A stretch of DNA of 21,948 nucleotides, from positions 1 to 21,948 of the IMG/VR virus record IMGVR_UViG_3300029319_000581, one strand, 5' to 3'. Shown here one piece after another: positions 15,979 to 20,789 of the stretch. The DNA is from a virus. The number at the start of each line of letters is the position of its first letter. Within the stretch, counting starts at the first letter, position 1. Below the pieces are notes generated by a model. The model saw only the letters and a list, made by a program, of their open reading frames with translations, made no database searches and was not told the origin of the DNA. Position numbers and translations under genes: made by a program.

Positions 15979-16274
15979 TAAGAATTTTTATTGTATTAAC
16001 TTTGATATGGGGAATCTTAATAGGATTGCCAAGCATTGCCAGTGCAAATCATTTACCAGTAATGTATGTGCAAGTGCCACAGTGGGCAGATGATTGGGCA
16101 GTGTGTGCTGTAGATATACCTGATGCTAAGTGTCATTGGTATGTCATGTCTCCTGATAATACATTCGGTGAGGGATTTGATTGGGAAGAAGCACCTTGGT
16201 TTGATGCTAATGGTCTAAATGATATTGCACCCATGCAAGCAAAAACAGTTGTAGAGAGGTTACAAGAACAATGA
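15975..16274 (+). CDS. Small exported protein with signal peptide
   Basis: This encodes 99 residues. Residues 1-24 look like a Sec signal peptide: basic MIR, a hydrophobic core (IFIVLTLIWGILIGL), then PSIASA with a likely cut after Ala24. The mature part is acidic and aromatic-rich, with Trp at several sites and two cysteines (C44 and C53) that could form a disulfide. It overlaps gp15 (ATGA) and gp16 (ATGA) and so is co-translated with neck and packaging genes. No family is recognised. A membrane-anchored or periplasmic phage protein could affect superinfection, lysis or the envelope, but nothing in the sequence decides this. A single-pass membrane anchor instead of a cleaved signal is the main alternative. 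Confidence 0.8.
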   Translation: MIRIFIVLTLIWGILIGLPSIASANHLPVMYVQVPQWADDWAVCAVDIPDAKCHWYVMSPDNTFGEGFDWEEAPWFDANGLNDIAPMQAKTVVERLQEQ

Positions 16275-16702
16275 CTAATCCTTTCGATGGTTTGAATGAT
16301 GCTTTTGGTTCTGAACCCTCAGAATTACAGAAGCATGTTGAAAAAGTAAAACCTGCTTTAAAAAAATCTGATACTGAAGATGTCAAACAAGACTATGAAG
16401 TTTCTCGTGCTCAATTACATAATCTTGTAATGAAAGGACAGGAAGCAGTTGACGGGATTCTTGATGTTGCACGAGCATCAGATCATCCTCGTGCTTATGA
16501 GGTTGCAGGTCAGTTGATTAAGAACGTAGCAGACACTGCAGATAAATTAATTGATCTTCAGAAGAAGATGAAAGAACTTGATGCAGAAGATAAAAAGAAT
16601 GCACCATCTACAGTAAACAACACCATGTTCGTTGGTAGCACTGCAGATTTACAAAAGATGTTAAAGAAGCAAAAAGAGATAAATAAAAAGGACACGAAAT
16701 AA
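16271..16702 (+). CDS. gp16: Terminase small subunit, T4 gp16-like
   Basis: This encodes 143 residues (T4 gp16 is 164). The N-terminus MTNPFDGLNDAFG and the segment DYEVSRAQLHNLVMKGQEAV followed by DGILDVARASDHPRAYEVAG are characteristic of cyanophage gp16. A helical, lysine-rich segment with LIDLQKKMKELD follows, then NNTMFVGSTADLQKMLKK near the C-terminus. The protein forms the ring that recognises DNA and stimulates the large terminase gp17 at the start of packaging. It follows gp15 in T4-type order with one exported gene between. gp17 is not found in this window, so cargo genes separate the two terminase subunits here, or gp17 lies further downstream. Confidence 0.9.
   Translation: MTNPFDGLNDAFGSEPSELQKHVEKVKPALKKSDTEDVKQDYEVSRAQLHNLVMKGQEAVDGILDVARASDHPRAYEVAGQLIKNVADTADKLIDLQKKMKELDAEDKKNAPSTVNNTMFVGSTADLQKMLKKQKEINKKDTK
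16678..16685 (+). promoter_or_regulatory. Probable late promoter octamer (GATAAATA)
   Basis: GATAAATA, 7 of 8 bases of the T4 late consensus, lies in the last codons of gp16 and about 28 bases before the ATG at 16714. The spacing fits a late transcript for the beta-rich protein. The AT-rich Lys codons here could give this match by chance. Confidence 0.45.
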
Positions 16703-16713
16703 CACGACACGAC

Positions 16714-17247
16714 ATGTCAGTTCTAAATGTACTAAGTACTAATGCTATTGCAGCAGGTGCAACTGAATACCAGACAGTTCAAACTGGTTACTACAGAGTT
16801 ATTGCCACTGGTGGTGATGCGACTGTAGCATTCAATGGTGGTCCTGCTATCACATTGATTCAAGATGAAGCATTGCTTTTAAAGGGTAGTAAACCTGGTC
16901 AAGCAAAGATTGTAAAAGGAGTATCTGATTCTACTGGTGATTATATTTTAGGTCATCATATACATGCAACAGGAGATGCACATCCATTCTCAGCTGGTGA
17001 TTTTATTGCAGTTGTAGATAATGGCACATCACCTGCTATTGATAGTAACTTCCTTTCTGCAGGAACTGCAGGTAAAAAGATTACTGCTGTTACAGGAAAT
17101 ACAATCGCCACAGATGTAGATTCATCAAGTGCTTCTGCAGACTACACATATGCCTCAGGTAATCAGGCAATTGTACAACGTGCAATCAAAGTTGCTGTTA
17201 CTGGTAACGCGATTGTTCTAGAGGAAATTCAAGTCGTTGGTGGCTAA
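16714..17247 (+). CDS. Beta-rich protein, probable virion component
   Basis: This encodes 177 residues with no signal peptide. Its composition is Ala/Gly/Thr/Val-rich with few charged residues and many short beta-like stretches (TGYYRVIATGGDATVAFNGG, GDYILGHHIHATGDAHPFSA). This is the style of small phage decoration or capsid-associated proteins. It sits just downstream of gp16 and possibly has its own late promoter, which suggests high late expression. The stop overlaps the next ATG (TAATG). The 11-base gap before the start contains a short ACACG/ACGAC repetition. I recognise no named family, so the structural role is inferred from composition and position. Confidence 0.72.
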   Translation: MSVLNVLSTNAIAAGATEYQTVQTGYYRVIATGGDATVAFNGGPAITLIQDEALLLKGSKPGQAKIVKGVSDSTGDYILGHHIHATGDAHPFSAGDFIAVVDNGTSPAIDSNFLSAGTAGKKITAVTGNTIATDVDSSSASADYTYASGNQAIVQRAIKVAVTGNAIVLEEIQVVGG

Positions 17248-17981
17248 TGCAAGAGGCGAAGAAATACTACGGAGGTAAGAATACCAAACCGAAAGGTTTT
17301 GGTGCTCCCGAACTTGGTCCTATTAACCAAGAAGCGGAGAGAATTATCCGTGGTATGAAACGTCAAAGTGGATCTAGATTTAAAAAACTCTATGGTAAGC
17401 GTGACAAAGATGTCATGACTTTAACCGCTAACAAGTTAGCACTAAAAGACAATTTGAAAGTTATGTACTACAAAGATTTCATAGACTTAGTTGAAGGTAA
17501 TCCTACCACTAGGATGCTTACAAAATCTAAGACTCAGACAACTGGAAATATTTCTGCTGACAGAGGCACAGATGAAAAGAAAAATCGTGCAAGTAGAAAA
17601 TCACTTGAGAAAGACCTAAAGAAAAAAGGCATCGGTTACAAAAAAGGGGTCGGAGAATATAAATATTCCTCAGGTGAAGGAACAGGTCGTGAGGTTTCAT
17701 ACCAAACGAGTCCTGGTAAAGGAATGTCTAAGAGACGTTTTGGTAAAGTCATGCGTCGTTTAGGACGTAAGCATGGTCAGGAATCAGTAATCACTAAGAA
17801 AGGTGATAAACCTGCAAGATTGCATGATACTGAAAAGAAAAAACCTGATAAGTCTATGACTCTAGGTAAATCAAAACCAGGTAAGAACCCATCTGGTTTT
17901 GGTGAAACTTCTGGCACAAAAGTTAGAAGTGGAAAATTATCTAAGAAAACTAACAAACCTGCAATGCATTATGGAAAATAG
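17247..17981 (+). CDS. Basic protein with a DUF3293-like domain
   Basis: This encodes 244 residues, very rich in Lys and Gly. Residues ~44-67 hold the motif RFKKLYGKRDKDVMTLTANK, also seen in changed form in the next gene. A segment MYYKDFIDLVEG follows. Residues ~101-195 have a pattern like DUF3293: ISADRG, then N-RASRKSLEKDLKKKGIGY, KGVGEY, GREVSYQ, and RRLGRKHGQESVI with LHDT. The last ~45 residues are basic and low in complexity (KSMTLGKSKPGKNPSGFGET). There is no signal peptide. It follows the beta-rich gene with a one-base overlap and itself overlaps the next gene by 11 bases. Its function is unknown; the DUF3293 link is my pattern match from memory and untested. Confidence 0.75.
   Translation: MQEAKKYYGGKNTKPKGFGAPELGPINQEAERIIRGMKRQSGSRFKKLYGKRDKDVMTLTANKLALKDNLKVMYYKDFIDLVEGNPTTRMLTKSKTQTTGNISADRGTDEKKNRASRKSLEKDLKKKGIGYKKGVGEYKYSSGEGTGREVSYQTSPGKGMSKRRFGKVMRRLGRKHGQESVITKKGDKPARLHDTEKKKPDKSMTLGKSKPGKNPSGFGETSGTKVRSGKLSKKTNKPAMHYGK
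17658..17665 (+). promoter_or_regulatory. Exact TATAAATA octamer inside a gene (possible late promoter)
   Basis: A perfect match to the T4 late promoter consensus lies in codons for E-Y-K-Y, inside the palindrome GAATATAAATATTC. It is about 313 bases before the start at 17971. It could drive that gene but may be fortuitous. Confidence 0.25.
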
Positions 17982-19107
17982 CATTACTGAAATTGCAATG
18001 AAGACCGATAAAAAGGTTCCTCTTGGACGTAAGAGCAATCCTTATGGAAAGCGTGCTATACTAAAAATGGTAGGGTCATCAATTATGGATAGAGCAAAAC
18101 AAAAAGCAAGAGCTTTGACAACAGTTCATTCAGAAGAAATGACTAAATCACAAATTAAAAAACGTGATGAGATTGCTGACTCCATGAGCACCAGAGATTT
18201 CAATAAGAGATATGGTAAAGATCGTGGAAAGGATGTCAAGTACGCAACTGCTACCAAACTTGCTATGAAAAAAGAATCTAATGAAATTGTCGAGAAAAAC
18301 AAAAGCGGTGATAGTTCTCTCCACGACTGGTTTTCTAAGAGTAAGTCTTCTGATGGGAAGCCTGGTTGGGTGCAACTCGGTGGTAAATATGCAGGAAAAC
18401 CCTGTGCCAAACAGCCAGGACAAACAACTAAACCAAAATGCGGCTCTTCTAAAATGAAGAGAAACCTAAATAAAAAGGAAGAGGATGCTGCCTTCCGTCG
18501 CAAAAACAGACAAGATCCTAATCCCGATAGAAAAGGAAAAGCAATCAACGTGAAAACAGAATCTACAGAAATCCAGACAGAAGGCAAAAAAGACGCTTGT
18601 TATCACAAGGTCAAGTCTCGTTATTCAGTTTGGCCAAGTGCTTATGCAAGCGGTGCACTTGTCAAATGCCGAAAAGTTGGTGCAGCAAATTGGGGAAATA
18701 AAAGTAAAAAAGAAGAATTTGATGGTAAGAAAAGTTTCCAAAACTTCATGGATGAAGGGCAGAAGTGTTGGAAAGGATATGAAAAGAAAGGAACCCAAAC
18801 CTTATTCGGCAAAAAGTACAACCGTTGCGTAAAGAAAGAGGAGACTGAGAATGTCGAAGAAGGAGCAGCGTGGACAAAAAAATCAGGAAAAAACCAGTCA
18901 GGAGGACTTAACGAAAAAGGCAGAAAAAGTTACGAACGCGAAAATCCTGGATCTGACCTTAAAGCACCTAGCAAGAAGGTTGGAAACCCCCGTAGGGCAT
19001 CGTTCTGTGCAAGAATGAAAGGAATGAAAAAGAAACTAACATCTAAGAAGACTGCTAGTGACCCCGATTCAAGGATTAATAAAAGCTTGCGAGCTTGGAA
19101 CTGCTAA
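17971..19107 (+). CDS. Lysine-rich multi-module protein of unknown function
   Basis: This encodes 378 residues from ATG 17971. An in-frame ATG at 17998 is a fair alternative, and neither has a clear ribosome binding site. The protein is strongly basic and modular. Residues 75-99 hold RDFNKRYGKDRGKDVKYATA, related to the preceding gene. Residues 116-193 begin SLHDWFSKSKSSDGKPGWVQ and include C145 and C157. Residues 206-240 begin KKDACYHKVKSRYSVWPSAY. Residues 263-290 are C-x3-GYEKKGTQTLFGKKYNRC. Residues 300-378 run from AWTKKSGKNQSGGLNEKGRK through RRASFCARMKGMKKK to the end RAWNC. Several modules are known to me as short uncharacterised domains scattered in phages and giant algal viruses, usually as separate proteins or in other combinations. 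DNA binding is a guess from charge alone. Confidence 0.78.
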   Translation: MENSITEIAMKTDKKVPLGRKSNPYGKRAILKMVGSSIMDRAKQKARALTTVHSEEMTKSQIKKRDEIADSMSTRDFNKRYGKDRGKDVKYATATKLAMKKESNEIVEKNKSGDSSLHDWFSKSKSSDGKPGWVQLGGKYAGKPCAKQPGQTTKPKCGSSKMKRNLNKKEEDAAFRRKNRQDPNPDRKGKAINVKTESTEIQTEGKKDACYHKVKSRYSVWPSAYASGALVKCRKVGAANWGNKSKKEEFDGKKSFQNFMDEGQKCWKGYEKKGTQTLFGKKYNRCVKKEETENVEEGAAWTKKSGKNQSGGLNEKGRKSYERENPGSDLKAPSKKVGNPRRASFCARMKGMKKKLTSKKTASDPDSRINKSLRAWNC

Positions 19108-19412: not shown

Positions 19413-19919
19413 ATGTTAAGAGCATTCAATACTATTGTTTTATCCGTAACAGTAGCGATTATTGATTTCTTGTATCGTGGTAGAGACTTTCAAAGATTTT
19501 GGGTGCTTGAGGAGATAGCTCGAGCACCCTATTTTGCGTTTTTGAGTGTCTTACATTTTCGAGAATCAATGGGATTACGAGGACCAGATCACATTTATCT
19601 AATGGAGGAACATTTTGGTCAAACACTTAACGAAACAGAACATCTTGAACATATGGAAAGTAGGGGTGGCAATGCTTATTGGATTGACCGTGCTTTCGCC
19701 AAGCACCTCGTCCTTATCTACTATTGGATCATGGTGGTTTATTATGGGTTATTTCCTGTATCTGCTTATGACCTAAATGAAAGAGTAGAGTGGCACGCTG
19801 CTCATACATATGAGGAATACCTAACAAGGTATCCAAATGACGAAGACATCATTAGAATAAGAGATGATGAAATCAAACATGCTCAAGAACTATCACAAGC
19901 AATGGAGATGATTAAATGA
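19413..19919 (+). CDS. ptox: Plastoquinol terminal oxidase (PTOX, alternative oxidase family)
   Basis: This encodes 168 residues, short like cyanophage PTOX. It oxidises plastoquinol and reduces oxygen to water at the thylakoid membrane. The diiron ligands expected of the family (four Glu, two His) can all be placed: E33 or E34 in VLEEIARAP, E74 and H77 in NETEHLEHM, E123 in LNERVEWHAAHTY, and E153 and H156 in RDDEIKHAQ. Hydrophobic stretches near residues 8-20 and 98-116 fit a monotopic membrane protein. In infected cells it is thought to act as an electron safety valve when carbon fixation falls. It lies 29 bases after the Cys-rich gene and has no obvious ribosome binding site. Its stop overlaps the next ATG (ATGA). 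Confidence 0.93.
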   Translation: MLRAFNTIVLSVTVAIIDFLYRGRDFQRFWVLEEIARAPYFAFLSVLHFRESMGLRGPDHIYLMEEHFGQTLNETEHLEHMESRGGNAYWIDRAFAKHLVLIYYWIMVVYYGLFPVSAYDLNERVEWHAAHTYEEYLTRYPNDEDIIRIRDDEIKHAQELSQAMEMIK

Positions 19920-20536: not shown

Positions 20537-20539
20537 ATA

Positions 20540-20612
20540 TAAGGGTGATGGGGATCGAACCCATCTTAGCCGAATTATGAGTTCGGTGCATTCACCAGAT
20601 TGCTACACCCTT
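20540..20612 (-). tRNA. tRNA with anticodon CAT (elongator Met, or Ile if modified)
   Basis: Read on the minus strand, the sequence folds into a 7-bp acceptor stem (AAGGGTG/CACCCTT), a 3-bp D stem (GCA/TGC), a 5-bp anticodon stem (CCGAA/TTCGG) with loop CTCATAA, a 5-base variable loop, and a T arm ATGGG-TTCGATC-CCCAT. The discriminator is A and CCA is not encoded. The A1:T72 pair and the lack of three G:C pairs in the anticodon stem argue against an initiator. A CAT anticodon could also decode AUA as Ile after lysidine modification; sequence alone does not settle this. The D stem is short and position 13 or 14 is irregular. It is the only minus-strand gene I find in the window. Confidence 0.88.
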
Positions 20613-20630
20613 AATGGAGTTGAAACTATC

Positions 20631-20789
20631 ATGTCCCATTATACTGTAGGTTATCACGATAACCATAATCAGCATTATGAAATATGTGAATATGCAGATG
20701 ACGCATTCACCGCTATCAAACAAGCAAGAGAAGACTTAGAAGGATTTAATAATCCTCACGCAGCAGAATATTGTATTAAGGAAGAATAA
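20631..20789 (+). CDS. 52-residue hypothetical protein
   Basis: The start is ATG 20631. An earlier in-frame start at 20577 is rejected because it would run through the tRNA. GGAG at 20615-20618 stands 12 bases upstream, somewhat far. The product begins MSHYTVGYHDNHNQHYEICE and contains DAFTAIKQAREDLEG. It is small, acidic and rich in aromatic residues and His. The stop is directly followed by the next ATG (TAAATG). The minus-strand -10 box of the tRNA promoter lies just inside this gene. No family is recognised. Confidence 0.7.
   Translation: MSHYTVGYHDNHNQHYEICEYADDAFTAIKQAREDLEGFNNPHAAEYCIKEE
20638..20643 (-). promoter_or_regulatory. Minus-strand -10 box for the tRNA
   Basis: On the minus strand this reads TATAAT, a perfect sigma70 -10 box, 25 bases before the tRNA 5' end. 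The -35 region is poor (at best 3 of 6). The predicted transcript would start near 20631, over the start codon of the 52-residue gene. Confidence 0.5.

Follow-up and report, generated by a model that had tools for sequence, protein, structure and literature searches.

What does the long basic reading frame downstream of the small terminase gene of this virus encode, and what could hold its many short conserved blocks together? The window, which is the whole stretch of 21,948 nucleotides analyzed here, is a fragment of a T4-like cyanophage (Kyanoviridae). Its translation shows that the frame at 17971-19107 on the plus strand is open from ATG to stop and encodes 378 amino acids, with a net charge of +49 and a K+R content of 24.6%. 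The protein matches phrog_727 (E=6.8e-151), and tblastn matches to it are found in 489 phage records, chiefly Synechococcus and Prochlorococcus myoviruses. ATG 17971, which overlaps the 3' end of the upstream ORF1 (17247-17981), was taken as the start, as a 402-amino-acid form beginning at TTG was unnecessary.

16271..16702, plus strand: gp16, small terminase subunit, the conserved upstream neighbor (phrog_445, E=1e-67)
17971..19107, plus strand: putative multi-module basic precursor of the phrog_727/T4-GC 119 family, 378 aa

On the 5' side of the frame, the window harbors genes for a head-tail adaptor (phrog_211, gp13-like), a gp14-like neck protein, the gp15 tail sheath stabilizer, and gp16, and on the 3' side genes for PTOX and an endonuclease. 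The counterpart gene sits between gp16 and gp17 in Syn9, S-SM1, and P-RSM4, and immediately 3' of gp16 plus gp16's neighbor in S-E7. In Sullivan et al. (2010), it appears solely as "a hypothetical protein (T4-GC119)." We also considered and rejected a cellular origin. A genome scan across about 85,000 species returned only 19 matches; almost all were in metagenome-assembled genomes, one was in a Prochlorococcus single-cell-type assembly, and these matches are probably viral contigs.

The original prediction, made from the letters of the window, described the protein as a fusion of several viral modules, and all of the motif blocks that it named are present. We ran block profiles over 86 related loci and the window, the loci being phages or marine bacterial and archaeal assemblies. 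Five modules were distinguished in the window, as follows.

18166..18282, plus strand: module A, the YGKDRGKDV helical motif, residues 66-104 (module profiles)
18295..18582, plus strand: module B (NKSGDSSLHDWFSKS...GKAINV), two Cys (profiles; a separate gene in other phages)
18583..18711, plus strand: module C (GKKDACYHKVKSRYSVWPSAYASGALVKCRKVGAANWGNKSKK), two Cys (profiles; stand-alone ORFs in L194, L197, L198, and others)
18757..18861, plus strand: module D (GQKCWKGYEKKGTQTLFGKKYNRCVKKEE) and linker, two Cys, predicted beta hairpin (profiles, AlphaFold)
18862..19104, plus strand: module E, DUF6321 (GAAWTKKSGKNQSGGL...RAWNC), net charge +16, two Cys (PF19846; stand-alone forms)

In the window, each of the four modules B to E contains two cysteines and is net positively charged. 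Could the blocks be low-complexity Lys-rich sequence? This alternative fails against the phrog_727 match, the near-invariant alignment columns within modules B to E, and the match of module E to PF19846 (residues 306-376, E=6.8e-23), which scores 81.5 bits against a gathering threshold of 28.5 and covers model positions 1-72 of 72. Module E is the only one to which Pfam gives a name. Searching each block separately and cataloguing the combinations, as had been proposed, revealed the orders BCDE, BCE, BDCE, DBCE, BCDDE, BADCE, and others among the 86 loci and the window. As module order varies across loci, the modules are shuffled units with variable linkers between them. The YGKDRGKDV motif also occurs in ORF1 and in the N terminus of single-ORF relatives (e.g., S-SM1_115). 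In S-SM1 and S-E7, the YGK motif lies at the N terminus of a single ORF that also includes modules B to E, and the gene is split in two in P-RSM4, as in the window. A search of solved-structure sequences with the 378-aa protein gave no match, and a weak HET-s match in the family search (E=0.91) was set aside. Two more recurrent modules, W-RGK...MFFP...KVYP and a Cys-rich RYC-x2-C...ETR-x2-CAYG, were seen in L039, L054, L087, and L088.

The modules also exist outside such fusions. B, C, and E are encoded as single, separate, adjacent small genes in other marine phages (L194, L197, and L198), and a wider scan identified 26 loci with consecutive genes E, C, and B in that order. The protein encoded upstream of the E-C-B set was the major head protein in 9 of the 10 loci checked. 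The stand-alone start codons lie near the predicted-cut boundary of the polyprotein (MPKKDACYHK, MAKKETTLRDWF). DUF6321 proteins are also encoded near the capsid gene, without a targeting sequence, in podovirus P-SCSP1q (gp18) and Pelagibacter phage HTVC023P (gp43). In L281-L343, L194, and L197, the tiny basic genes of this conserved E-C-B set lie 3' of the major capsid gene, and the phages that carry them are not evidently T4-like.

What lies at the boundaries where the modules are joined? The T4 prohead protease gp21 cleaves after L/I-X-E (PMC9026906). When the residues that precede module starts were aligned, the endings VSE/G, IIE/K, LDE/G, INE/G, VEE/G, and LQE/G recurred (slashes mark predicted cuts). 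Of 197 distinct contexts, 132 have a strict [ILVM]xE in the 8 residues before the module core; shuffled 30-mers gave about 24 such contexts, and shuffling confined to the last eight residues gave about 50; many sequences share ancestry, so shuffle p-values overstate independence. By module, the counts were 22 of 25 contexts before B (2.6 in shuffles), 28 of 47 before C (6.2), 52 of 71 before D (9.2), and 30 of 54 before E (6.3). Per 100 aa, the motif occurs 9.1 times at boundaries, 2.1 times in linkers elsewhere, and 0.62 times in module interiors, and an L-N-E is also present within module E. Roughly 40% of the boundaries before C and E lack the strict motif. Stand-alone modules rarely contain it (3/76, each time a few residues from the start Met). 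The four predicted sites in the window are as follows.

18292..18294, plus strand: codon of E108, predicted site IVE/K before module B (in the pLDDT<50 segment 91-131)
18580..18582, plus strand: codon of E204, predicted relaxed site IQTE/G before module C (in the pLDDT<50 segment 181-206)
18736..18756, plus strand: internal capsid-targeting-like FQNFMDE with a predicted cut after E262, codon 18754-18756 (T4 spacing pattern)
18859..18861, plus strand: codon of E297, predicted site VEE/G before module E (in the pLDDT<50 segment 291-299)

The window site before C has the relaxed form I-x-x-E only, and relatives carry a strict IQE, IIE, or LDE there. An AlphaFold model of the whole 378-aa protein, whose alignment rows were contig loci only, had a mean pLDDT of 55, with 41% of residues in segments with pLDDT below 50. 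The model was too uncertain for a fold search and was therefore used for locating disorder only; all four predicted cuts (E108, E204, E262, and E297) fall within such low-pLDDT segments. Homologs of gp21 are encoded by S-SM1 and S-SZBM1, and the corresponding gene would lie beyond the limits of the 22-kb window fragment.

A second signal accompanies these sites. In T4 IPIII, residues 4 and 7 are required for capsid targeting and residues 8 and 10 for processing, and in the T4 record both ipII and ipIII begin with MKTYQEFIAE/A. In its strict form, [FY]xx[FY][ILMVQF]xE, this spacing was seen 10 times among the 79 distinct multi-module proteins, each time at a module boundary, although boundaries account for 4% of residues. 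In the 378-aa protein the T4 spacing is found internally (FQNFMDE/G) and not at its own N terminus, whereas the T4 position is N-terminal. Free-standing proteins with such sequences exist as well. L136 encodes an 89-aa protein, MKTFSEYLNE/DWQKKSG, that consists of the targeting sequence and DUF6321 alone; a free-standing protein of L122 starts with MKTFSQFMAE/GNP; S-SZBM1_192 starts with MKTFKQYITE/A; and further examples are encoded in L095, L096, and L097. A literature search that covered few subscription papers found no paper tying capsid-targeting sequences to cyanophages. The original prediction thus holds as regards module fusion, and it missed the T4-type protease sites and capsid-targeting sequences that join the modules. 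The nucleic-acid or metal binding that it proposed for the Cys/Lys blocks would be a further candidate property.

The same kind of signal is found in the overlapping upstream frame.

17247..17981, plus strand: ORF1, 244 aa, with YGK module, targeting sequence, and SAM-lyase-like module; overlaps the 378-aa frame
17463..17495, plus strand: targeting-like MYYKDFIDLVE/GN in ORF1, residues 73-83 (relaxed pattern)
17517..17978, plus strand: SAM-lyase-like module of ORF1 (PF23780, fold search)

With the relaxed pattern, a targeting-like sequence precedes 37 of 38 distinct SAM-lyase modules, and in relatives the tag-plus-lyase cassette is fused behind differing upstream partners. All nine members of the module examined match PF23780 (best E, 4.7e-20), the window copy at 26.6 bits, slightly below the 28-bit cutoff. 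The first fold matches of the modeled module were the phage SAM lyase 6znb (E=3.5e-3, TM of about 0.4) and T3 SAMase, with modest scores, and its profile gave no match among solved-structure sequences. An invariant E59 is a candidate for the catalytic Glu (E69 in Svi3-3) that, with a ferredoxin-like fold, characterizes phage SAM lyases. The SAM-lyase-like module of ORF1 is likely anti-restriction cargo.

Are such proteins found in virions? The original prediction had called for proteomics, and for relatives of the protein, published mass spectrometry of S-SCSM1 (PMC9602691) and S-CREM2 supports presence in the virion. S-SCSM1_29, annotated as a "virion protein," contains modules B, C, D, and E. 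In purified S-CREM2 virions, 52 of 219 annotated proteins were detected (PMC10665884, Table 3), among them gp137, which carries module E (DUF6321) and was identified by 4 peptides only. The strict N-terminal T4 targeting pattern is present in 4 of the 219 S-CREM2 proteins, and all four are in the virion, compared with 0 of 167 non-virion proteins (Fisher p=0.003). These are a SAM hydrolase (gp6, MKDFDSFLEE), an APH-like kinase (gp14, MKRFDAFLTE), gp136 (MQTFSMFFSE), and a cytidylyltransferase (gp154, MKNFSSFLTE). Near forms of the pattern occur in virion proteins gp12 (Cas9-like, LRFASFMAE) and gp13 (MKDLHSFLTE). The virion SAM hydrolase, the APH-like kinase, the cytidylyltransferase, and the Cas9-like protein of S-CREM2 (loci L173 and L176-L179) thus have T4 IP-like targeting sequences at or close to their N termini; the S-CREM2 authors left undecided whether carriage of such virion enzymes is real. 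In S-SZBM1, the virion cytidylyltransferase starts with MRFRQFIIE/A, and the virion protein S-SZBM1_139 has module D behind EMTE/G. S-SZBM1_192 (module E) and S-SZBM1_194 (SAM lyase) are absent among the 30 reported virion proteins of that phage; tryptic mass spectrometry readily overlooks short peptides rich in Lys, but this absence is still negative evidence.

The modular make-up, the boundary-specific protease-like sites, the targeting-like sequences, and the separate-gene counterparts are features of the sequences themselves. Taken together with the relatives in virions and the gp21 homologs of S-SM1 and S-SZBM1, they lead us to regard the 378-aa protein of this T4-like cyanophage as probably a polyprotein precursor from which internal-head cargo derives. 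The precursor would be made late and loaded into the prohead core via T4-type capsid-targeting sequences. The phage's own prohead protease, a gp21 homolog, would cut after [ILVM]-x-E at E108, E204, E262, and E297 and release modules B, C, D, and E as small basic two-cysteine proteins. The freed modules would remain alongside the DNA inside the head and would probably enter the host at infection; they may function in DNA binding or counter-defense. ORF1, which is apparently coupled, would use the same signal for its SAM-lyase-like module.

We weighed three other explanations. The protein could belong to the scaffold or core of the prohead, as T4 gp22 and gp67 do, with most of its fragments being expelled and not retained as cargo. 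T4 scaffold and core proteins likewise undergo multiple gp21 cuts (PMC9026906), and the 378-aa protein is basic and adjoins packaging genes. We consider this improbable, however, as gp22 is already present in the genomes checked, mature virions contain relatives, other phages have the modules as separate genes without protease sites, and the same signals stand before enzymes (SAM lyase, kinase, and cytidylyltransferase). Slightly less probable still is an uncut, flexible, multi-domain head protein for DNA binding or decoration, in which E-rich linkers mimic sites by composition. The linkers are indeed E-rich and predicted to be disordered, and the cuts at module boundaries are predicted ones; yet the motif exceeds shuffles that preserve local 8-aa composition, is rare before stand-alone modules, and is accompanied by strict targeting patterns at boundaries only. 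A non-virion protein for host takeover or regulation, with its gene in a mobile cassette close to PTOX, is very unlikely because relatives occur in two virion proteomes and the modules adjoin the capsid gene in other phages, even though T4-GC119 has been listed as a hypothetical protein of a possible mobile cassette and the S-SZBM1 virion list lacks the proteins with module E and the SAM lyase.

As a cargo precursor, the protein would resemble known systems in part. T4 IPI, IPII, and IPIII (and Alt) are comparable in being small basic proteins with the same targeting spacing, polymorphic cargo, and an [IL]-x-E cut of the kind predicted here. They carry one cargo per N-terminal signal, however, whereas the proposed cyanophage precursor has up to five modules, with a site before each and internal targeting sequences, and family searches (Pfam and PHROGs) detected no similarity between the modules and T4 IPs. 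Polyvalent proteins of phages and conjugative elements (Iyer et al. 2017, PMC5512222) are likewise multi-domain and, as proposed for the cyanophage protein, are co-delivered with DNA and can have their domains freed proteolytically; they too have anti-restriction themes. They contain their own embedded peptidase domain, while no peptidase domain was matched in the 378-aa protein in Pfam or PHROGs, and release in the cyanophage would be by the head protease in trans. SPN3US and phiKZ-type head proteins undergo several prohead-protease cuts per protein, as predicted here, and include ejected head proteins, but their cut segments are removed propeptides, unlike the cyanophage segments, which are conserved modules and whole proteins elsewhere. 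DUF6321 (PF19846), which module E matches in full length, is a family without a described function, and head cargo is proposed here. The ORF1 module appears to resemble phage SAM lyases (T3 SAMase and Svi3-3; PF23780) in family and fold, with modest scores; T3 SAMase is reported to be produced early in the cell, whereas the ORF1 module is apparently head-loaded.

These results raise a broader possibility, to which we give even chances, that T4-like cyanophages have a general means of head loading based on a portable targeting and cleavage tag, and that a captured E-C-B set was strung into the precursor. The tag would also load single enzymes, namely, the SAM lyase, kinase, cytidylyltransferase, and Cas9-like nuclease, and the prohead protease would free all cargo for delivery along with the genome. 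The capsid-linked E-C-B genes of other marine phages would be the source of the precursor modules. The ocean is rich in T4-like cyanophages, and this "hypothetical" gene is present in hundreds of their genomes. A cargo precursor, if confirmed, would explain how ready-made proteins reach the cyanobacterial host, would provide the first functional assignment for DUF6321 and several orphan modules, and would show that a DNA phage can equip its head by way of a polyprotein. With a predictable tag, virion proteins that have been puzzling (cytidylyltransferase/NMNAT, kinase, SAM hydrolase, and Cas9-like) would become parts of a testable delivery system.

Other genes around the frame have counterparts in relatives as well. 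A DUF7243/phrog_682 protein is encoded at 16714-17247, and S-SM1 and P-RSM4 also have it between gp16 and the counterpart gene. PTOX (plastoquinol terminal oxidase), an auxiliary metabolic gene at 19413-19919, is also found in the gp16-gp17 region of Syn9, S-SM1, and P-RSM4. A tRNA-Met gene on the minus strand (20539-20613) overlaps a small plus-strand ORF (20577-20789), and P-RSM4 is annotated likewise.
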